From contig CAJNDT010000133.1 of assembly GCA_905221615.1 (NCBI GenBank), forward strand, positions 1 through 64,000: DNA of 64,000 nucleotides, given 5' to 3'. Below are positions 6,245 to 48,775 of this stretch, piece by piece. The notes beneath the pieces are model-generated. The model was not told the DNA's origin, ran no database searches, and saw only the letters and a list, made by a program, of their open reading frames with translations. The translations under genes were made by a program, and so were the position numbers. The first letter of the stretch is position 1. Every line of letters starts with the position of its first letter. Source of the stretch: Symbiodinium sp. CCMP2592 (lineage: Eukaryota > Sar > Dinophyceae > Suessiales > Symbiodiniaceae).

Positions 6245-6660
6245 CGGACCCATACTTGTTAATGAATATCTAACCTCCAATCCCTAAACCTAGACCCTAC
6301 GCCCTAAATTAAATCCTAAACCCTAAAACCCTCAAATCCCTCAACCCTAAACCCATGCAAACGCGTAAATCCCAAACCCCAAACCCTAAACCCCAAATCC
6401 CAAACCCTAAATCCCTCAACCCCTACCCCGAAAGTCCTAAGCGAGACTGGAGGAGGGCTGCCTCGCCCCTGCTTCTGATTTCCAGCACTGCTCCGAATCC
6501 TGGGGAGCTGGGGTCAGTCCGTAGGTTTGGGGTTATGGGGTCTGGGTTTAATCAATTAGGGTTTAGGGTTCATTGGGGGTTACGGGGTTTGGGTTAAGTT
6601 GCACTTAGGGTTTAGGGATTAGGAGGGTTAAGGATTTAGGGAGGTTTTAGTTTAGTTTTC
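6245..6660. repeat. Convergent interstitial telomere-like arrays
   Basis: CCCTAAA-type units, many degenerate (CCCCAAA, TCCCTAAA, CCCTCAA), fill about 6281-6430 on the plus strand. After about 110 bp of unrelated sequence, TTTAGGG-type units fill about 6530-6655. The two blocks are therefore inverted relative to each other. TTTAGGG is the plant, dinoflagellate and chromerid telomere unit. Confidence 0.75.
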
Positions 6661-36712: not shown

Positions 36713-36772
36713 CGGCTTAGGGTTTAGGGTTTAGGGTTTAGGGTTTAGGGTTTAGGGGTTTAGGGTTTAGGC
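36713..36772. repeat. Interstitial TTTAGGG array
   Basis: Seven to eight almost perfect TTTAGGG units, the cleanest telomere-like array in the window. It faces opposite to the CCCTAAA minisatellite 100 bp upstream. Confidence 0.95.
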
Positions 36773-38991: not shown

Positions 38992-40992
38992 CCGCCTGCC
39001 TTCAGGGCCTTTGCCGGATCCTCTTCGATGCTCTCTGAAGCAGCCCTGAGCCAGCGGTCTGAAGCAGATTGCAGGCTCAAGGACAAGGGACCACAACAGC
39101 ACCAACTGGAGCGATTGCAGCCTTCGCGCCGAAGTAACATGTAGGCAACGAACTCACGTGCCCAAATAAAATAGATCGGCGACCTTCGGCAAAAGCCAAA
39201 GCCCTATTAACAGCGTGTTAAGACAAAGTGGCCTAACAATGCCGGGTTTGCGATGATCCTGGGGACGGATTCGGCTCGACTACCTCCGAAAACCCTTTCG
39301 TTCATCAGAGCTTAGAACTCTGCGGGCTGAGGCTCGCAAAAGCTTTCTTCACAGCTTGCTCAGAGTTCGACTGCACCTCGCGACGGGTCTCAGGGAGAGC
39401 GGGAGATCCAGAACCGGAACATCTGAACTCAGCAGACCACGGCGGAGGTGATTTCAGTGGCGATCACGACAGGAGGAAAAACAGGATGAGGACAAGGATG
39501 ACCATGTGGATGGTGACGACGATTGCATCAGACACGAGTATCACGATGACAGCGATGACGAGAAGCAGCAGGATGAGGCGGGTGAGGGCCAATGCAAAAG
39601 TGCCAGATCTCCGGTAAGCTGTGTCGACTTAGTGCCGGAAGTAGAATCTTGGAGCATTTGTGCCAAGGGGTTGGCTTGAGTCGTACTCGTCCGAAAATTA
39701 CCAGCTGTGGCTACTTGAACATCAACTAAGCATTTAAGATGTTCATGCCAGCAGCACAATAGTTATGCAGACTGGACCCACGACAATTAGTAAACATCAC
39801 GACTGAAATCAGAAATGTCGTCGCAATCATTGATCGAGTAGTACACATGATCGTACGGATACATTGCACTGGCTCTAAGACAGCAGCAGTTCTCTTCCCA
39901 TGTCCCTGCCTTTTGCAGGAGGCCTGGTCTGAAAGTTCCACGCGACAGCTTCCACTCCGCCACTTTGCAGACATAGGCCTTTCCGCGATTCCCGGAGCTT
40001 ATCATCTCTGGGTCCCAAACCGCGAGTCCACAGCACATGGCAATGCCTCAATCCCGAACCCCTGAAGCCCTGAGCCACCAAATCGCTTAAACCCCAAATC
40101 ATTGCAACCCTAGCACTGCTAATAACCTGAAGCAGATCCTCAAACGTTGGCGAATGTTCGGACGTGCATCTCTGTCTCTCTCTCACTTTGGCTTGTTCCC
40201 GTGGTCTCTATGAAGCTTCTTTCGCAAGGATGGTTTGGGCTTCGATGTTCTGGTTTCCGCGGGTTAGGATTTACTATACTGAACTTAGAACCCTAGCAAC
40301 AATTAAAATTTTAGCTGTTTCTTAGGGATTATAATAACCAAAAATTAAAAGCTATTTCTAAGTACCCCTAAGTTTAGGGTTTAGGGCCACAGTGTGCATA
40401 CATGGACGCAGCTTCCGACTGCGAACTCTGCCGGAGCGGAGGCGAGAACACGACTCTGCGCCGGCATCAACTTTCCTTGCCGACGGCGACTATCAAAACG
40501 CTTCATGGCATGCCAACTTTCGATTCAGTGGCCACCCCACTTGGGCATTGGGCGAGCAGAGTGTTCGGGTTGATGCATTCGCGGGGTGTTAAGATAGAAA
40601 AAGCTACACTCGAAACGAAGAACCCTTATAACTTATTCTCTCGCTGGCAGTCTTGCTGATTTTCTAGACTTCCACCACATGCAAAGTGAAAGCTTGCGTG
40701 ACATGGCATACAGGCTCTGCGATTGTACCCGTCGGCCTTGTCAACTTCAGCGCCTTTTGCTTCCTCCGGGCCGTTGTTTTGCAATGGCTTGTTGTGGTTG
40801 GGACTTCGAGTTACGAATTTCGAAGCAACGGAGTAACGTAGGAATACGGCCAGTTGGTATGTTCTAGTGACTCGTATAGTTCTCGTCATAAGGCTCCCCG
40901 ATACGGGTAATCGCTCGGGCTTTACATTGCCTGGGATGGACACAAGCAACGAGCGCGTGCATGGGTTGAATCTTCGAATTTTGAGGATGACC
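38992..40992. other. Non-coding stretch before the retroelement
   Basis: No gene is recognised. Frames near 39787-40186 (minus) and 40402-40659 (plus) have no distinctive content. Confidence 0.5.
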
Positions 40993-41116
40993 CAACTTGG
41001 AGGGGCAAGGGACTTAGTAAGTAGGTTATAAGTAGAGTTATAAGTACCCTAAATGGAGTTACCCCAATGATAACCCGACTTATACACGACTTACTAAGTC
41101 CCCTGTCCCTCCAAGA
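40993..41116. mobile_element. MITE family B, copy 4
   Basis: AACTTGGAGGGGCAAGGGAC then TTAGTAAGT at left pairs with ACTTACTAAGTCCCCTGTCC then CTCCAAG at right. It lies 88 bp from the left edge of the retroelement. Confidence 0.75.
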
Positions 41117-41204
41117 AGGACGCAGAATCCTGCTCCGAAAGTTTCAGTGCGCAGTTTTGGTCCTTAAAGTTCCACCCTCCCCACCAATCCCCCAACAAAA
41201 ACAC

Positions 41205-41523
41205 ACACACTTCGGAATCACCCTGTTGGGGAAGGCAGATCGATACACACGGATAGCACTCAAATTTTTAAGGATTGCCAGCTGCTACGCCGAGCCCAGG
41301 CACATCCTCATGCGAACCCCCAGCTGCCACACTGAGCCCAGGAGCATCCGCATGACAGAATGAAGATACAGGTACGTTTACAGCACCACACCGCCAGGCT
41401 CTTCGTTGGCTGCCCCCTGACGGTGGGTGGAGCAGCCCCCTGCACTCTTCTACAATTTCAATCACACGCAGATGCAACTTCACAGAAAACCCGTGGACCA
41501 ACAGGGCTTGTGCCCACACACAC
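41205..41523 (-). repeat. Left (3') pseudo-LTR, 319 bp
   Basis: It matches 47237-47555 at a constant offset of 6032 without mismatch. It starts ACACACTTCGGAATCACC and ends in CCCACACACAC. It includes two 42-bp imperfect tandem units from 41278 (CCAGCTGCTACGCCGAGCCC and CCAGCTGCCACACTGAGCCC). Its left edge abuts an AC run preceded by CAACAAAA. Confidence 0.95.
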
Positions 41524-41677
41524 CACCCGGCCCTTCCAGGACCAGGATGGCAGTCAACACGAGTAGATTTGTAACGACCTGCACTGCACGCAAATACTGT
41601 CCCGCTCATGTTTTTCCCGACGCCTGCTCCACGACACTGCTGAAATTGAAACTCCCGAGCCTGCTGTTTTGACTTGC

Positions 41678-44416
41678 TCACACAACTGACCGAAACCTTT
41701 TGGCCTTTGCTGGAAGAGCCCGGTGCAATTCGTGACGGCTAAACCCCAGTTCCAAATATTTGTGGGAAAGTGCACGAATTTGAGCTGGCACATCCTGTTT
41801 TGGATACACCTGCGCTGCCACGATTAACACCCTTGCACGATATGACGCAAGATTTGCATTTGCAGACCCTGCGCTTTGCGGAACTCTGTACTGCCAGTTT
41901 TCTTCAGGAATGTCAAACGTTACACGGCGATCATGCACAGACACCCGACACCCCAACAACTCCTCCACGTTACATGCTTCGAGCATTACCGGAGGCCCAT
42001 AGAAGGTAGGCATCACCAACTTTTGAAAAGCATCGCCTTTCAAGCACGTTCGAGGAAACAGCAGAAAGCGATTGTCGACATACCGGAGAAACCAACAAGC
42101 CAAGCGATCAGAAGCCCAGCATTGCCTCAACCCCCGGACCCAACAATCTTCCTCCATGCAGACCGCGATGTTGCACAAACTTGGTGACAGCTGATTGCCT
42201 ATTGGGCTGCCTCTCCTCTGGGCAAAGCATCGGCCAAGCACTGTGAAAGATGCAAACGAAAAGGAGAGCTCGATGATCCTCAACACGTCACCCGCAAAAA
42301 CTTTTCGACAAGCCGATGCTCTGTTTTTCATAGGCTTTCCACGTAGGACACGTCCATATGAAGAAGCTGACTTTTCATCGACGGTGAACCAAAACTCTCC
42401 TCGGTTTTTCCCGCCTGACTGCTTGTTGTCAAAAAACCTGTCCAACGCGAGTTCGCAAGCACGCTTTAAGCGTGACACTGGGATAGAAGTGAAAAATCCA
42501 GCGAGATCGTCATTGACCGTCACATACTCTTGCGCTTTAGCATGAGACAAGCGGTCGAGAAAGCCATGAAGCGAAGACCACAACTCGTGCAGCTTCAGTT
42601 TGCCAAAGTTCGCAGGGAAAGCAACATGACAGACTTCATTCAGCACGCAAGCCACAATCTTGCACAACCGACTCAAACACGACCCGCGAAAGTTGATGAT
42701 TGACCGAGCCTGCTTGAAATCTTTTTTCTTTTTCAAAAACACATAGGCCTTGGGTAGCACATACGTCTCTTTGATACCCCACGCGTACCGAGATTTCAAC
42801 TGACAAGGTATGGCATCAAAAGCAGACTTCGCAATGGAATAAGGATGACCTGCAAGTTCACAGTACACGTCCTTGTCCTCAAACGTACTCAACACTGCGG
42901 AACGGTACAACTGCGGACAGAAAACCATGATTTGGTTGTAAGCGTGGTCTCGAGAGTGAACAACCAGGTCCTCCATCTCTTGGGCCGCCCTGAGAACGTC
43001 AGACACGGAGAATCGTCCAGACACAGCTTTGACATGTGCACGAAACTCAACGCTCAGAAATTGCAACCACTGCTGTACGACCTCGTTGACTGGTAAATGG
43101 TGGTGCTCAGCCCACTTGCCAACCTCTTGCACAGAAATGTCCTTGTACCTTTGGTAGCGAGGGAAAAAACAACAGCCTGCAGACGACCCGAGAAGACGTC
43201 GCAAATGTCTTGATACCGACAACCGCGAGGCTGGTGATGCAACGTGGCCGTCTATGCACTCAAGCTCCGGATGTTTTTGCAGCACGGACTGGCAACGACA
43301 CAGCTCCTCACCTGGGCACTGCGAAAACTTTTTTAGCCACAGTCGAAATGTAAAGAGTTTTTCGCCCACCGATCCATGCCTTTTTTCAATAACATCCTTC
43401 GTCGGCAGATGAAACGGCAACGCCTTGTGTGCAAACGTTTTCCGAACGTGCACAACCCATTTTTTCACATTTTGTTTGAAAAACTTGTTCGCAAGCAACG
43501 GAATTGCTAAAGATTTGGCGAATCGTGGGACTGCCAGCCCCTTGTACACAAGGACAGCACGCAACCGTTTTTTTGCAACACCTCGGTATGGCTCCTCCAA
43601 GGCGCTTGCCAGTCTGTCCAATGCATACAAGTTTAGACTGTTCGTCTGAGCTGCGAGTAACTTCTGCATTTGCCATCCTTGCCCGTCCAACTGAGATAGA
43701 AGAAACAAGATTGACCACGCCGATGATCTGGAGAGAATTTTACCACCCTGTGAACCAAATTCAGTCACAACCTTTTGGATTGTTTTTGACCGCCTTCTCA
43801 ACTTCAAGAACAACCTCTTACCGCACCTTTGGGCAGCAGCTGCATGCTTCTTCGCTACTTTCTGGACGGTAACGTGGTCTCCTTTAAAGACCAGTTTGTT
43901 TGAAAACGGATAGTTTAAAGGTGGACGCCAGTTCTGTACAAAGAGATGTTCCAATGTCCACGCTTGCGCGTAGGAGCTTCCAGCGGCCAAGACAATCGGG
44001 ACGAAATCGAAAAAGTTTTGGCGACAAAACCACCACTTCACAGCAGGCTCAGCTTGAACAAAAGAGGATTGAAACAATTGGTCGTGTTTTCGGACTCGAG
44101 CATACTCGCGTTCGAACATCCCGACTTTCGTGGATCCAATGTAGAACATGTGAGAGCTAAGAGAAAACCGGCGCCTGGAGCAACTCTCAGTAACACCAGG
44201 CACGCGAATGTAGACAACGAGACTCTGATTGAAAAACTGCCAACTATAGCTTCGAGGTGAGACATTTTGACGCAGCAACCTTCGCTTCCACTCAGCGGCC
44301 TTGAAAGACAACCTTTCGGCAGAAAACAACACAGTTAGCCACACAAAGCCGGCTACGTACAAGGCAGCCCGCTTGATGGCTTTGTTTGGAAAAAGCAAGG
44401 CACACTGTAGCACCAT
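41678..44416 (-). CDS. GIY-YIG endonuclease-reverse transcriptase of a Penelope-like element
   Basis: This 912-aa protein would nick the target and copy the element RNA into the genome. Residues about 65-170 form a GIY-YIG nuclease: VVY at 67-69, YIGST at 92-96, arginines at 107 and 109, catalytic-type Glu156 in LEHLFVQNW, and PPLN at 165-168. The linker has the CxC motif (LCRC, Cys373 and Cys375). The RT shows a KKKKDFKQARSIINFRGS fingers motif (562-579), motif A DDLAGFFTSI (636-645), motif B QRRGSPIGNQLSP (733-745) and motif C RYVDNRFLL (778-786). About 85 residues separate motifs A and B, which resembles the insertion-in-fingers domain of telomerase-like RTs. Motif C has Asn782 where most RTs have the second Asp. 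The frame continues upstream without a stop to TGA 44462-44464, so the true start may differ from the ATG used. All internal codons are open and the stop is TGA. Confidence 0.9.
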   Translation of the reverse strand: MVLQCALLFPNKAIKRAALYVAGFVWLTVLFSAERLSFKAAEWKRRLLRQNVSPRSYSWQFFNQSLVVYIRVPGVTESCSRRRFSLSSHMFYIGSTKVGMFEREYARVRKHDQLFQSSFVQAEPAVKWWFCRQNFFDFVPIVLAAGSSYAQAWTLEHLFVQNWRPPLNYPFSNKLVFKGDHVTVQKVAKKHAAAAQRCGKRLFLKLRRRSKTIQKVVTEFGSQGGKILSRSSAWSILFLLSQLDGQGWQMQKLLAAQTNSLNLYALDRLASALEEPYRGVAKKRLRAVLVYKGLAVPRFAKSLAIPLLANKFFKQNVKKWVVHVRKTFAHKALPFHLPTKDVIEKRHGSVGEKLFTFRLWLKKFSQCPGEELCRCQSVLQKHPELECIDGHVASPASRLSVSRHLRRLLGSSAGCCFFPRYQRYKDISVQEVGKWAEHHHLPVNEVVQQWLQFLSVEFRAHVKAVSGRFSVSDVLRAAQEMEDLVVHSRDHAYNQIMVFCPQLYRSAVLSTFEDKDVYCELAGHPYSIAKSAFDAIPCQLKSRYAWGIKETYVLPKAYVFLKKKKDFKQARSIINFRGSCLSRLCKIVACVLNEVCHVAFPANFGKLKLHELWSSLHGFLDRLSHAKAQEYVTVNDDLAGFFTSIPVSRLKRACELALDRFFDNKQSGGKNRGEFWFTVDEKSASSYGRVLRGKPMKNRASACRKVFAGDVLRIIELSFSFASFTVLGRCFAQRRGSPIGNQLSPSLCNIAVCMEEDCWVRGLRQCWASDRLACWFLRYVDNRFLLFPRTCLKGDAFQKLVMPTFYGPPVMLEACNVEELLGCRVSVHDRRVTFDIPEENWQYRVPQSAGSANANLASYRARVLIVAAQVYPKQDVPAQIRALSHKYLELGFSRHELHRALPAKAKRFRSVV

Positions 44417-44461
44417 GCAAAGTGTGGTTAAAAGAGAAAAACACCGGTACGAAGCGGGACA

Positions 44462-44464
44462 TCA
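44462..44464 (-). other. In-frame TGA between the SR-rich ORF and the RT ORF
   Basis: The sequence reads GCT AGC TGA TGT CCC GCT on the minus strand. Downstream the same frame stays open for the next 15 codons and then through the whole RT ORF. Reading through would give a 1260-codon fusion. TGATG here also overlaps the stop with an ATG, but that ATG is out of the RT frame. Every ORF of the element ends in TGA, so a general reassignment of TGA is unlikely. Confidence 0.9.
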
Positions 44465-45460
44465 GCTAGCGAGAACATGCGCTGCCGCAATGATGCGGAT
44501 CAACTCCTTGTCCTTTGCAGAAGAAGCTTGCTTTACACTCAAACCCCACTCAGCAGCAACGTCCGGGAGGCTTGCCAACTGCGGTTCCGACAACTGTTTG
44601 AAAACTTGCTCCGCGTCTTTGATGGCCGTTTTGATGGACGCTTCTTTCTTCTTGGGCAACTTCCGGATCCAAGCATTGACGCCCTGGGCGGTGACGGTGG
44701 CGGGGTAGTTTTCTCTCAAAGGCTTGACTCCCGAGTCGTTCTTCACAAGGGGTGACGAAGTCACGTGCTCAACGGGCAAGTTGTTACCACCTCGGCGAAG
44801 ACGCTTGCTGGTCGGCGGGGCAGGCGAGCGCGAGGGAGACGACTTTCGAGAAGCAGCCTTTTCTGCTTCAAGCTCTTTCACCCTTTTTCGGAGCTCTGCA
44901 ACTTCATGAGCATCAGACGATGAACACGGCGGGGCATGAAATTTTCGGATAACACTCAACGCTTCTGTAGCCAATTCCTGCACTGCTTTGTTCTTGCCGT
45001 CCTTGTCGATTGGATTGTCTCCGTACTTTTGGAACCACCGGTTGAAAGCGGCACTCTCGATGTCCAAATGTTCAGTGCGACACAACCGCAACAAACTGTC
45101 TGCCAGCTGAGCTTCACGAACTGAACGAGCGAAGACAACACTCACGAAAGCCCCTGCTGACAAGGCTCTCAAGTTGTGGTTCTCCCAGCCCAAATAGCAC
45201 AGTTCATGAACTTTGACACTATCCACAGGACGATTGGCAAGACCAACTTGTTGAGACCACGGTGTTGAGCAAACGTTCCGGTAGAACTGGCGACCAAAAC
45301 ACGAATTTTTGTCGATGTACTTCTGGTCGTGCTGGAAAGAAGCAGGAAGGTCCAACTTGTGCTCTTTGCGCCCATGACCGTGCGGACTTTCAAACTCCAC
45401 ACGGCTTGTGCGACGACGTGCCACTGGAGATCGAGACCGAGAGGAATCACGCCTAACCAT
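44462..45460 (-). CDS. SR-rich coiled-coil protein, second ORF of the retroelement
   Basis: This protein of 332 aa is probably a nucleic-acid-binding partner of the RT. It starts with an Arg/Ser domain (RRDSSRSRSPVARRRTSR, residues 3-20). A possibly globular region follows (about 45-175), then a predicted coiled coil (HEVAELRKRVKELEAEKAAS, 185-204). A second Ser/Pro/Arg linker contains a nuclear-localisation-like SKRLRRG (218-224). The C-terminal part is helical and basic (WIRKLPKKKEASIKTAIKDA, 264-283). The ATG lies 30 bp after an in-frame TAG. Its stop TGA is in the same frame as the RT ORF, with 15 open codons before the RT ATG. No homologous family is recognised. The role is inferred from composition and position, by analogy with ORF1 proteins of other non-LTR elements. 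Confidence 0.75.
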   Translation of the reverse strand: MVRRDSSRSRSPVARRRTSRVEFESPHGHGRKEHKLDLPASFQHDQKYIDKNSCFGRQFYRNVCSTPWSQQVGLANRPVDSVKVHELCYLGWENHNLRALSAGAFVSVVFARSVREAQLADSLLRLCRTEHLDIESAAFNRWFQKYGDNPIDKDGKNKAVQELATEALSVIRKFHAPPCSSSDAHEVAELRKRVKELEAEKAASRKSSPSRSPAPPTSKRLRRGGNNLPVEHVTSSPLVKNDSGVKPLRENYPATVTAQGVNAWIRKLPKKKEASIKTAIKDAEQVFKQLSEPQLASLPDVAAEWGLSVKQASSAKDKELIRIIAAAHVLAS

Positions 45461-45619
45461 GCTTTCGACAGCGCGGCGAAGGGGACAACACTACACTACG
45501 AACCACACTACAGGAAAAGGTCACGTCGAGACGCGATGTGCAACATGTGCATTCTGCAGACAATGCATGCAAGAAACCGCGGTGCAGACTTGTTTGACGA
45601 GGACAGCACCGTAAACGAC

Positions 45620-46672
45620 TCAATAAACATTGTCACCAGCTGTACCCAATTTCAAGGCAAAGCCGGAGAGCTGGTAAAAATCCCGATTTACGCACAACCG
45701 TTGGACCAACTGACTTTGTACAGAATGGCAGGTCTTGTGGTGTGCATCGGTAGGAAAGGTTGATGATTCTGTTGTCTCGCACCATGCATGCTCTGAGCAC
45801 GAACCAAAAATCAAACAACACGACTTGTTCCTCAGATCATGGGCGGCACACGCCAAAACTTCGGCAATCGGTGGTTGATGCGAAGGCCTCACATTACTGC
45901 CCCAAACTAGACACTGCGAGGACTGAATCTCACCTTCGTTGACAATGTCGCAAAACTCCCGCATGTTGACAGGAACCACGAATGTACTGGGCGATCTCCA
46001 AGATTTAGCCATGGTTTGTCGTCCACATCTGCACTGCAAAAGACTCGATTCCATCACCATGAACTGGACCATCTTGGCGTCACCATTCGAACGAGCAGAG
46101 AGCAGACTGAAAGGTCCCAAATCAGCAATACCCACACCGCATGCATGTAGCAGTTGTGCACATTCGCTAAGCGCTGCTGAACACGCCGGTTTTCCACGGT
46201 ACAACGAGAAACTTGCCAATTTTGCCATCAGGAACTGACGCAAGGACTCGGCCTCAGGAACCCACAATTGGGAATTGCTGTCGTTTTGAGTCGAGGGCAA
46301 GCGAATCTGCTGCACGACATCTTGGTCAGTTTTCATGACTTTGGGCTGTAAAGGACCTGCAGGCCGATACTGAACCTTGCGCTTCTGGTGCACCGGCACA
46401 TGAACTTTACAGTCGTTGGCATCAACGAACGGGGTAGACGTAGTTTCAGAACTATCCCGAATCTCGTCACGGCCAACCACACGAGCTGGTGGACAATTTA
46501 GCTTTGGAATCCACTTCGGTCTAGGGGCACCATCGCCCAAAACTCGGAAGCTTGCGCCAGGCATCTGGATGTTTCCGACCACAGACTCGCCACTTCTCCC
46601 ACCACTTCGATGCTGGTTCGTTTGACTGCTGCTAGAAACATGCCATATTCCAGGTGGAAAATCCAAGCTCAT
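45620..46672 (-). CDS. First ORF of the retroelement, 350 aa, function unknown
   Basis: It is the promoter-proximal ORF of the element. The first in-frame ATG is at 46672, and the frame stays open 37 codons further upstream to a TGA. The N-terminal 140 residues are polar and look disordered (SSSSQTNQHRSGGRSGESVV). From about 138 a compact domain begins (LWVPEAESLRQFLMAKLASF) with several cysteines, including CRCG (214-217). The C-terminal region is Cys/His-rich (SCCLIFGSCSEHAWC, then DAHHKTCH), a possible metal-binding site. It shares no motif that I recognise, so protease, capsid-like or zinc-binding roles are all open. After its TGA the same frame has two more stops (TGA 45521, TAG 45491) before the SR-rich ORF. 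Confidence 0.7.
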   Translation of the reverse strand: MSLDFPPGIWHVSSSSQTNQHRSGGRSGESVVGNIQMPGASFRVLGDGAPRPKWIPKLNCPPARVVGRDEIRDSSETTSTPFVDANDCKVHVPVHQKRKVQYRPAGPLQPKVMKTDQDVVQQIRLPSTQNDSNSQLWVPEAESLRQFLMAKLASFSLYRGKPACSAALSECAQLLHACGVGIADLGPFSLLSARSNGDAKMVQFMVMESSLLQCRCGRQTMAKSWRSPSTFVVPVNMREFCDIVNEGEIQSSQCLVWGSNVRPSHQPPIAEVLACAAHDLRNKSCCLIFGSCSEHAWCETTESSTFPTDAHHKTCHSVQSQLVQRLCVNRDFYQLSGFALKLGTAGDNVY

Positions 46673-46983
46673 GATGCCTCTGCTCTGGAGTGCTGCAACA
46701 ACGGTATCCAACTTTGAAGGCCTCAAGGGCAACCAACTAAGTGAAGCTTTCAAACGATTGTCGTGCAGTATGTCGACATGTCACAACAAGAAGACACCTT
46801 TAGACCGAAAAAAGCTGCAAGCGGCGAGCGGCTCCTTGCATGGACACGCGAACCATGCAAGAATTTTAACATGCATTGTCAATATTTGACGGTGCCACCA
46901 ATGTTGCGTACTGTCCAAATCCACCACACTGGTTGCACGAAGTAGATCTGGAAGCATACGAAGACATGTAACTCGAAGCGAAG

Positions 46984-47083
46984 TGGTTGCTCACGGCATC
47001 AACTGGTTGCTCAAGGCAAGAACTAGTTGCTCAGGGCAAGAACTGGTAGCTCAAGGCAAAAACTGGTTGCTCAAGGCAAGAAA
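46984..47083 (-). repeat. Five 20-bp tandem repeats in the retroelement leader
   Basis: Units TGGTTGCTCAAGGCAAGAAC start at 46984, 47004, 47024, 47044 and 47064 with one to four differences each. They lie between the right pseudo-LTR and the first ORF, in what would be the 5' leader. Confidence 0.9.
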
Positions 47084-47236
47084 TCGTGTTTACTGCACAA
47101 GCATGTCGGCCGAGGTCACAACATCAACGCTCCCACACTGTATTCGTCTCCACAACACCGTGTACTTGTGGTTCACATCACACTTGGCGCCCTCCAAGGG
47201 ATCACGACAATGACCGAATACGGAAGCATTGCCGAA

Positions 47237-47555
47237 ACACACTTCGGAATCACCCTGTTGGGGAAGGCAGATCGATACACACGGATAGCACTCAAATTTT
47301 TAAGGATTGCCAGCTGCTACGCCGAGCCCAGGCACATCCTCATGCGAACCCCCAGCTGCCACACTGAGCCCAGGAGCATCCGCATGACAGAATGAAGATA
47401 CAGGTACGTTTACAGCACCACACCGCCAGGCTCTTCGTTGGCTGCCCCCTGACGGTGGGTGGAGCAGCCCCCTGCACTCTTCTACAATTTCAATCACACG
47501 CAGATGCAACTTCACAGAAAACCCGTGGACCAACAGGGCTTGTGCCCACACACAC
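47237..47555 (-). repeat. Right (5') pseudo-LTR, 319 bp
   Basis: Same sequence as 41205-41523, including the internal 42-bp tandem pair at 47310-47393. Its right edge continues into a longer CA run (to about 47567), consistent with insertion in a pre-existing microsatellite. Confidence 0.95.
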
Positions 47556-47567
47556 ACACACACACAC

Positions 47568-48775
47568 TCAAGGAGCTGTGAACTCGCAGTCGTAACGCAG
47601 TATGGACCTGAAGCCATCGCCCTAAGCAGCAGGCTCTGTTCTTTCCTTGAGAGTCTGAGGGTTCAGGTTTCCGGTGGAGGGAGTGTAAGGTTTTGGTTTG
47701 AGCTTAGACATTATAAAGTTTTATAGGTTTGGGGACATGTTTCTTCAGGGCTTAGGGCTGATACGCTCCGACTGCTAGCTGAGCAAAGCCGAGTTGTCCT
47801 TTAAGCCCTGAGAAAATCATTAAATTTACTATTATGGTTCTCTACAAAACCCTAAACCCTAAACCCCTAAACCCTATAGTAGGGGAAATTAAAAAGGATC
47901 CCAAAGAAAACCCAGAAAGCCAAGATCTTCAAATCATGGCGAAGTGCCGGCCTTGGCGCTGTAAAACCACTTGTCCAGCGCTTGCAGCTTGCTGGGGTCC
48001 TGGCAGCTTCAGGGTTTTCGGGTTTCGGGATTGAGGGGTTTAGGGGTTTAGGGGTTTAGGGGTTATAGGGGTTTTCGGGGTTAGGGATTTAGGGGTTTAT
48101 GGATTTAGGGTTTAGGGTTTCGGGGTTTAGGGTTTCAGGGGTTCGGGTTTGCTTTTCTACAAGTATGGGTCCGTTATTTGGGTCCTGAGAATCAGAGTCC
48201 TACTTGTTGGCCTCATGCGGATAAGGCTTGAGGGGTTCAGGATATGGGGGTTTAGAGTGATCATGTTTAGGTCTTTAGGCGTAAGGGGCTCTGGGAGGGG
48301 AGGGTTTTGGGGATGGGCTTTAGGGTGCAGGACATTCTGATTACCTTCGTAGTTGCCGTTTAGGGGTTTAGGTGTTAGGGCGTAGTGTGTAGGGCCATGA
48401 AATTCAGTTTTTTTACTTTCAAGCTTAGTGGCTTAGTCTCTGCTGCTACCGGCAGGTCAAACTGGCTCGACTTACACCTTGAACCTTGGGTAAACCCTGA
48501 ACCCAAAGCTCAAAACCATACACCCTAAACCCTGAACCCTAAACCATGCATCCCCTACAGAAGAACCTCAAGCTGCTCAGAAGCCCAAAGAAGCAGCTCT
48601 CGGCCGCTCCTTCTTTCGGTCAGCCACTCGCTGTAGCGCCTGCTCAACTCGAGGTCTCAATTCGCAAACGTTCCTATCACGTCTAGTCTGAGCAGTCCTT
48701 GTGTTGTCTTTGCCGTACTCAGTTTTCGCCTTCGCACTGTTGTACAAACATCACCAGCCCGACTTATCGTGGAAG
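47568..48775. other. Non-coding stretch with telomere-like patches
   Basis: Three CCCTAAA units lie at 47849-47873. Dense TTTAGGGG/TTTCGGGG degenerate units follow at 48010-48145 in opposite orientation. No gene is recognised. Confidence 0.55.

Follow-up and report, generated by a model that had tools for sequence, protein, structure and literature searches.

Architecture of the element

The window examined is the whole of a 64,000 nucleotide stretch (positions 1 to 64,000) of contig CAJNDT010000133.1 from the coral-symbiont alga Symbiodinium sp. CCMP2592, and it includes a minus-strand unit of 6351 bp, from 47555 to 41205, that is predicted to be a Penelope-like element (PLE). The order of its parts is pseudo-long terminal repeat (pLTR), open reading frame (ORF) A, ORF B, an in-frame UGA, an ORF for a putative endonuclease and reverse transcriptase (EN-RT), and a second pLTR (Table 1). 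An initial annotation, made from the letters of the window alone, had described direct repeats of 319 bp bounding the element, and the two repeats (41205-41523 and 47237-47555) are indeed identical, with 0 differences. It had also called the host a probable dinoflagellate, which agrees with P0003, a gene model from Symbiodinium sp. CCMP2592 (Dinophyceae). Of its 937 residues, 1-925 consist almost entirely of exact pieces of the A, B and RT ORFs of the window; the end of the model does not come from these ORFs, and it differs from the second copy of the element described below.

ORF A, ORF B and the EN-RT ORF share one frame in the window. A and B are separated by three stop codons (TGA, TGA and TAG), and B and EN-RT by one TGA. 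The longest stop-free runs are 927 codons for RT, 386 for A and 342 for B. Simulating the interval 500 times with a first-order Markov model gave a longest run of 298 codons at the 99th percentile and of 341 at most, so B is barely above the simulation maximum. The element had been placed within a CA microsatellite. This holds at the right border, which is adjoined by a CA run, but the left flank is CA-rich only briefly. A CA run is found at one border of copies 1 (the window copy) and 2, and also at the pLTR borders of lineage V (lineages are defined below). The element as first observed is thus confirmed, and its interpretation is supported by the results that follow.

Table 1. Features of the element and their positions in the window.
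Feature	Position	Strand	Basis
Whole element, pLTR to pLTR, 6351 bp	41205..47555	-	Identical 319-bp repeats; complete second copy on a different contig, with matching borders
5' pLTR (direct repeat)	47237..47555	-	Repeat comparison; also bounds copy 2
CA run at 5' border of the element, crossing the pLTR edge	about 47547..47567	.	Read in the sequence; similar run at the same border of copy 2
20-bp tandem repeat, 5.2 copies, in leader	46980..47082	-	Repeat scan
ORF A, 350 aa	45620..46672	-	Relatives P0013 and P0017, which start and end at almost the same places; ORFs at the A position in lineages II-V; no Pfam match
ORF B, 332 aa; N-terminus rich in SR, middle and C-terminal parts conserved	44462..45460	-	Relatives; tblastn match upstream of RT in 29/30 loci; six-lineage alignment
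UGA codon that separates ORF B from the RT frame	44462..44464	-	Junction reading; genome census
15 sense codons, UGA to first in-frame ATG of the RT ORF	44417..44461	-	Junction reading
EN-RT ORF, 912 aa	41678..44416	-	ORF list; relatives
Hydrophobic helix N-terminal to the nuclease domain, residues 12-32	44321..44383	-	Helix in model; comparable hydrophobic segment in relatives
GIY-YIG-like nuclease domain: VVY 67-69, YIG 92-94, R103, E156, N168	43913..44218	-	Conserved residues; EN-only model
CxC linker motif (C373, C375)	43292..43300	-	Present in 19/19 rows
TERT-like region, residues 345-912	41681..43384	-	Structural matches
RT motif A, DDLxGFF	42491..42511	-	Alignment; HDLxGFF in lineage III rows
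RT motif C, YVDN	42071..42082	-	19/19 rows
3' pLTR (direct repeat)	41205..41523	-	Repeat comparison

The EN-RT protein

The signature residues of a GIY-YIG-like nuclease occur in order in the EN-RT protein and its aligned relatives, with xVY found in 17 of 17, and R103, E156 and N168 each in 18 of 18, of the rows that reach them. The motif order of GIY-YIG, CxC linker and RT, previously read from the window ORF alone, recurs in those relatives that reach the EN-like domain, and the CxC linker is found throughout. When the EN region was modelled by itself, the GIY-YIG enzymes I-TevI (ranks 1 and 2) and Hpy188I (rank 5) were among the best fold matches, though the match is weak (E 0.3, prob 0.75, TMt 0.63). 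Given the conserved residues and this weak best match to I-TevI, the domain is likely to be a GIY-YIG endonuclease. An hhalign comparison of the EN region with T4 SegB produced no match.

The model of the EN-RT protein matched telomerase RT (TERT) at Foldseek ranks 1-18 and at VIA-align ranks 1-16, the latter over residues 345-912. A family not listed by the structural search was not counted as excluded. The assignment to a Penelope-like element with permuted domain order is therefore upheld, in that TERT is the best structural match of the RT while the GIY-YIG residues lie in order N-terminal to it, with I-TevI as the weak best fold match. A profile of the RT ORF had no match among PDB sequences, and a scan of IMG/VR with the RT alignment found no relative. 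About 95 residues separate RT motifs A and B. RT motif C is commonly YxDD. Here, it reads YVDN in all 19 rows. One related gene model in eukprot, P0008, has what by eye is an apparent cytosine methyltransferase start joined to EN-RT, and is probably chimeric.

Further copies and lineages

The genome searched (1.098 Gb in 5383 contigs) gave at least 53 matches to the RT protein (best 50 of 1198 candidates scored), and 30 loci were fetched. Among these, lineages I (2 loci), II (3, identical in the stretches compared), III (11), IV (10) and V (1) were distinguished, and lineage VI was read from one locus. RT identities are 26-42% among lineages I-V, and 29-35% between VI and I-IV.

The initial annotation had proposed a multi-ORF element on one strand, and had pointed to a genome-wide search for further copies, since copies lacking the two upstream ORFs would indicate trapped sequence. 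A second full copy (copy 2), 99% identical and located on contig C3902, has the same borders, both pLTRs and all three ORFs. Over 6351 bp, 36 substitutions and 1 indel set it apart from the window copy; the indel is in a pLTR and none is in the ORFs, and 17 of the 30 ORF substitutions are at codon position 3. A match to ORF B was found by tblastn upstream of RT in 29 of the 30 fetched loci. The remaining locus (L008) is a piece of a decayed copy, the other pieces of which (L009 and L021) have B, and L019 carries the N-terminal part of B in inverted orientation. ORF B relatives precede RTs that are 27-42% identical to the window RT in five further lineages, and long ORFs occupy the A position in four of the other lineages. 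With a second full copy, A-B-RT units in other lineages and B upstream of RT in six lineages, the two extra ORFs belong to the element.

Direct repeats surround A-B-RT in both lineage I copies (319 bp), in lineage II (425 bp) and in lineage V (438 bp). No direct repeats were found around A-B-RT within the stretch examined for lineage III, and in that examined for lineage IV there were only repeats of 57-96 bp, which do not flank the unit.

ORFs A and B

ORF B has a clear codon-usage signal (0.134, against a null maximum of 0.122). In the protein database, a B relative (P0016) and an RT relative (P0004) are on contigs of equal length (1449229), and a gene model of S. necroappetens (P0018) links a B relative with RT pieces. 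On the basis of its SR-rich, conserved sequence we propose that B may be a Gag/ORF1-like RNA-binding protein. Searches of Pfam and PDB sequences with ORF A and ORF B found nothing above the cut-off.

In the list of ORFs, ORF A (45620-46753, minus strand) opens at a TTG. Two relatives, P0013 (84% identical) and P0017 (43%), keep nearly both ends and begin at or within two residues of the ATG at 46672, which is therefore the likely start and gives a product of 350 aa. The codon-usage signal of ORF A is weak (0.039 against a null 99th percentile of 0.025, with another frame reaching 0.033). Seven upstream stretches were compared, including that of copy 2 and one that was more than half masked. 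Long ORF runs occur at the A position in lineages II, III, IV and V, with a frameshift in the V copy, and are weakly similar in a chain that links II with V (E about 5e-5), V with IV (about 6e-4) and II with III (0.018). No pairwise similarity was detected between ORF A of lineage I and the A-position ORFs of the other lineages. Across lineages, the stop codon of ORF A is TGA, TAG or TAA.

By eye, the A ORFs of lineages II-V (L033, L034, L035 and L037) have in common an H-[AGN]-[ST] stretch and, after it, a loosely kept motif that is I-R-P-like. The pattern is reminiscent of ADP-ribosyltransferase-like folds; Pfam searches with the A ORFs of L033, L035 and L037 found nothing above the cut-off.

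An in-frame UGA between ORF B and the RT frame

ORF B ends in TGA in each of the six lineages, and the RT frame is open onward in the same frame, a relation that the initial annotation had not noted; for lineage VI, a TGA is in frame at the junction of its one locus. A script that read upstream from the RT frame in the 30 fetched loci encountered the terminal TGA of B as its first stop in 26. The decayed locus L007 is a 27th once its frameshift is accounted for. The last 3 loci all belong to a single decayed copy on contig C5135, and two of these pieces have the same TGA letters at the site.

A census of the junction covered 150 of 151 matches (the best 150 of 245 candidates scored), with 9 rows that do not span the junction and 141 that do. 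In a scripted recount of the spanning rows among these listed matches, a single TGA and no other stop stands in 134 of 141, TGA together with further stops in 5, no stop in 2, and TAA or TAG alone in 0. Because the rows of any one lineage are copies of each other, it is the six lineages, not the 141 rows, that count as independent evidence. In the two copies with no stop (L039, G000:C646:865469-865879; L040, G000:C256:101310-101537) B and RT are fused, and L040 is otherwise decayed. The stop that terminates the RT ORF, by contrast, varies, being TGA in lineages I, II, III and VI, TAA in IV and TAG in V. The frame relation of A to B is also variable. The two share a frame in I, II and V and are in different frames in III and IV (IV from one of two pairs), so that, in contrast to B and RT, a shared frame is not general for A and B.

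The first in-frame ATG is 15, 18, 44, 28 and 8 codons past the TGA in lineages I, II, III, IV and V, respectively, and the distance from TGA to GIY is 81, 86, 92 and 92 codons in I-IV. An out-of-frame ATG comes before this first in-frame ATG in each of lineages I-V (one locus each). In the 44-codon spacer of lineage III, a comparison of 11 copies shows 5/5/17 polymorphic sites at the three codon positions (p 0.0015); for the 7 copies whose B is intact the figures are 4/3/14 (p 0.0018). The last 60 codons of B in the same 7 copies give 4/2/25, while all 11 copies, unaligned and with some B frames broken, give 33/34/42.

In the decayed copy of lineage V (G000:C297, L034 with L007) the open runs of A and B share a frame and only one TGA separates them, which makes this TGA a possible second recoding site.

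Interpretation of the junction and alternatives

We consider it probable that the element is a Penelope-type retroelement in which a likely GIY-YIG endonuclease precedes a telomerase-like RT, accompanied by genes A and B, and that B and the enzyme, in one frame across a single UGA, are joined by readthrough into a B-endonuclease-RT fusion. At the level of sequence, the kept frame and stop codon suggest that the UGA is likely read through to give some of this fusion.

A number of results weigh against this interpretation. Whole-chain TM-scores of the EN-RT model to TERT are low (0.22-0.39), and RVT_1 was below the cut-off in the EN-RT protein of the window. GIY-YIG was found by none of the profile searches of the EN region; the I-TevI match is from one EN model with a pLDDT of 60, the other four being at 31-38, and unrelated folds hold ranks 3 and 4. 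Half of the ORF substitutions between copies 1 and 2 (15 of 30) change the residue, so little constraint is visible from this pair alone. At the junction, two census rows among the matches listed have a sense codon at the site, one being CGA and the other in a decayed copy. The sequence after the TGA in lineage IV has no position-3 bias (2/2/3 in 10 copies). The base after the UGA varies between lineages, and no RNA structure 3' of it stands out, with a best z of -2.5 in 1 of 18 folds and of +0.3 for the same stretch in the sister copy; no usual readthrough signal was therefore found. Separate initiation is also possible because in-frame ATGs lie 8-44 codons past the TGA.

Under such separate initiation, the UGA would be the ordinary stop of ORF B and EN-RT would start at a downstream ATG, either by reinitiation or from a separate spliced-leader mRNA. 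The in-frame ATGs lie near the hydrophobic helix, the database gene calls P0001, P0004 and P0007 begin there, and dinoflagellates trans-splice a leader onto their mRNAs. The presence of this leader, DinoSL, upstream of genes is mentioned in part of PMC11453091. However, both the frame and the stop codon are kept in six lineages though the TGA-to-GIY distance varies, TAA or TAG alone was absent from the listed rows that span the junction, and the spacer of lineage III varies like coding sequence. The spacer of lineage I has no AG acceptor, and an out-of-frame ATG overlaps its TGA. We regard an independent start as the less likely course, though it is the most credible of the alternatives. Reinitiation at the TGATG overlap of lineage I was rejected, as this ATG is out of the RT frame, and a relict spliced leader was rejected when the DinoSL pattern had no match in the window at up to 3 mismatches.

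Decoding of the UGA as selenocysteine is improbable. UGA is the sole stop seen alone at the junction among the matches listed, and selenocysteine-coding spider and clam Naiads were reportedly described by Craig et al. in 2021. However, UGA also terminates the RT ORF in four lineages, the site is the boundary of two proteins rather than a cysteine position, and no Rfam SECIS match was found in the element (E up to 5) or in 10 relatives (E up to 2), for which it is noted that the Rfam model may miss protist SECIS elements.

That the two upstream ORFs are unrelated sequence trapped between the repeats is hardly tenable. The weak codon signal of ORF A and the absence of pairwise similarity between A of lineage I and the A ORFs of other lineages would fit it, but the borders and ORFs recur in the second full copy, B is matched at all but one of the fetched RT loci, the relatives of ORF A retain nearly both ends even at 43% identity, and the A-position ORFs of II-V, V-IV and II-III are linked. 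An LTR retrotransposon with a degenerate pol, which the long identical direct repeats and the Gag-stop-Pol-like layout could suggest, is equally implausible, as the RT folds best as TERT, the three window ORFs gave no Pfam match to integrase, RNase H or protease at E up to 1, and the repeat ends are CA-rich and without the usual TG...CA of LTRs.

Proposed expression and mobility

If the UGA is read through, B would coat the element RNA as a Gag/ORF1-like RNA-binding protein. Most ribosomes would halt at the UGA and release B, and the minority that pass would make the B-EN-RT fusion, which could tether the nuclease and RT to the B-coated RNA. A nick made by the nuclease in CA-rich DNA would next serve the RT as the point from which to copy the RNA. 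The terminal repeats may be products of tandem copying; tandem copies as a source of pLTRs are outlined for PLEs in a passage of PMC11167929. A would be translated separately in the window lineage, as more than one stop lies between A and B.

LTR elements and retroviruses are known for Gag-Pol style expression. The window element unites, within one PLE, three ORFs and an endonuclease-like domain with an in-frame UGA whose conservation points to expression in this style, and in a single genome more than 100 copies of the junction stay in frame through the UGA. The balance of the comparisons leans towards dinoflagellates carrying an ancient, multi-lineage branch of PLEs with a retrovirus-like Gag-UGA-Pol logic, whereby an ORF1-like protein would be made alone when ribosomes stop at the near-invariant UGA and fused to EN-RT when they pass. 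If true, this would be the first known structural-enzyme fusion by stop-codon recoding in telomerase-related retroelements, and these would be the first PLEs described from alveolates. The junction is a candidate for UGA recoding in dinoflagellates, and the element would extend PLEs with an N-terminal EN to alveolates.

Comparison with known elements

Chlamys and Naiad are PLEs with an N-terminal EN, in which the EN precedes the RT, a CxC linker is present, a canonical hammerhead is absent, insertion is biased to microsatellites and the RT fingers domain has an insertion. The window element resembles them in its GIY-YIG-like domain before the RT, CxC linker, pLTRs and apparently CA-rich insertion site. 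No hammerhead ribozyme match was found in 40900-47900 (E up to 5) or in 10 relatives (E up to 2). It differs from Chlamys and Naiad in having three ORFs, with B and EN-RT joined in frame by a UGA, and in its dinoflagellate host. Most of the features tested for N-terminal EN PLEs were found, some of them less clearly, and the likeness to Chlamys/Naiad is one of features, the RT tree comprising only the lineages described here. The host range given for this clade in the initial annotation (green algae, spike mosses, slime molds and invertebrates) is dated, as Chlamys PLEs were reported in 2025 from the brown alga Ectocarpus and are, according to part of PMC12477816, the first PLEs reported in TSAR.

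A 2019 review describes, in an excerpt, compact PLEs as encoding RT and endonuclease in one ORF or as having two ORFs and no endonuclease, and Terminons as large endonuclease-deficient PLEs that can carry accessory ORFs (PMC6431247). The Athena/Terminon elements of bdelloid rotifers are likewise PLEs with extra ORFs, some of which, in the same excerpt, have coiled coils, membrane segments or a separate GIY-YIG-like nuclease. However, Terminons as described there have no RT-fused endonuclease, are telomeric and have hammerhead motifs, whereas the EN-like domain of the window element is inside the RT protein. Canonical Penelope/Poseidon elements share the telomerase-like RT with GIY-YIG and the pLTRs, but in the part of PMC11167929 that treats them the EN is C-terminal, there is a single ORF, and the Anolis element targets AT-rich rather than CA-rich DNA.

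Two ORFs in one frame across a single conserved stop constitute a gag-stop-pol layout, in which the structural role of B is presumed. By analogy, the nearest match in expression layout appears to be Tca2 of Candida albicans, a gag-UGA-pol LTR retrotransposon whose structural and enzyme ORFs are also separated by an in-frame UGA (PMC2194720, in part). Local sequence alone did not direct bypass in Tca2, according to that paper, and no local signal was found in the window element. Unlike the window element, Tca2 is an LTR element with a different RT, and the mechanism of its bypass is left open there.

A limited literature search on PLEs in dinoflagellates, Symbiodiniaceae and alveolates turned up no PLE in dinoflagellates. 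The word Penelope is absent from PMC8045281 and PMC11453091, and occurs only as an abbreviation entry in PMC5963040 and as an author's name in PMC6722697.

Other features of the window

Just beyond the 3' border of the element, an inverted repeat at 40996-41115 has 46-nt arms that are 85% complementary and 28 nt apart, and resembles a small foldback element. Degenerate TTTAGGG-type repeats and long trinucleotide arrays are dispersed across the window (e.g. 6282-6422, 36717-36771 and 48011-48150).

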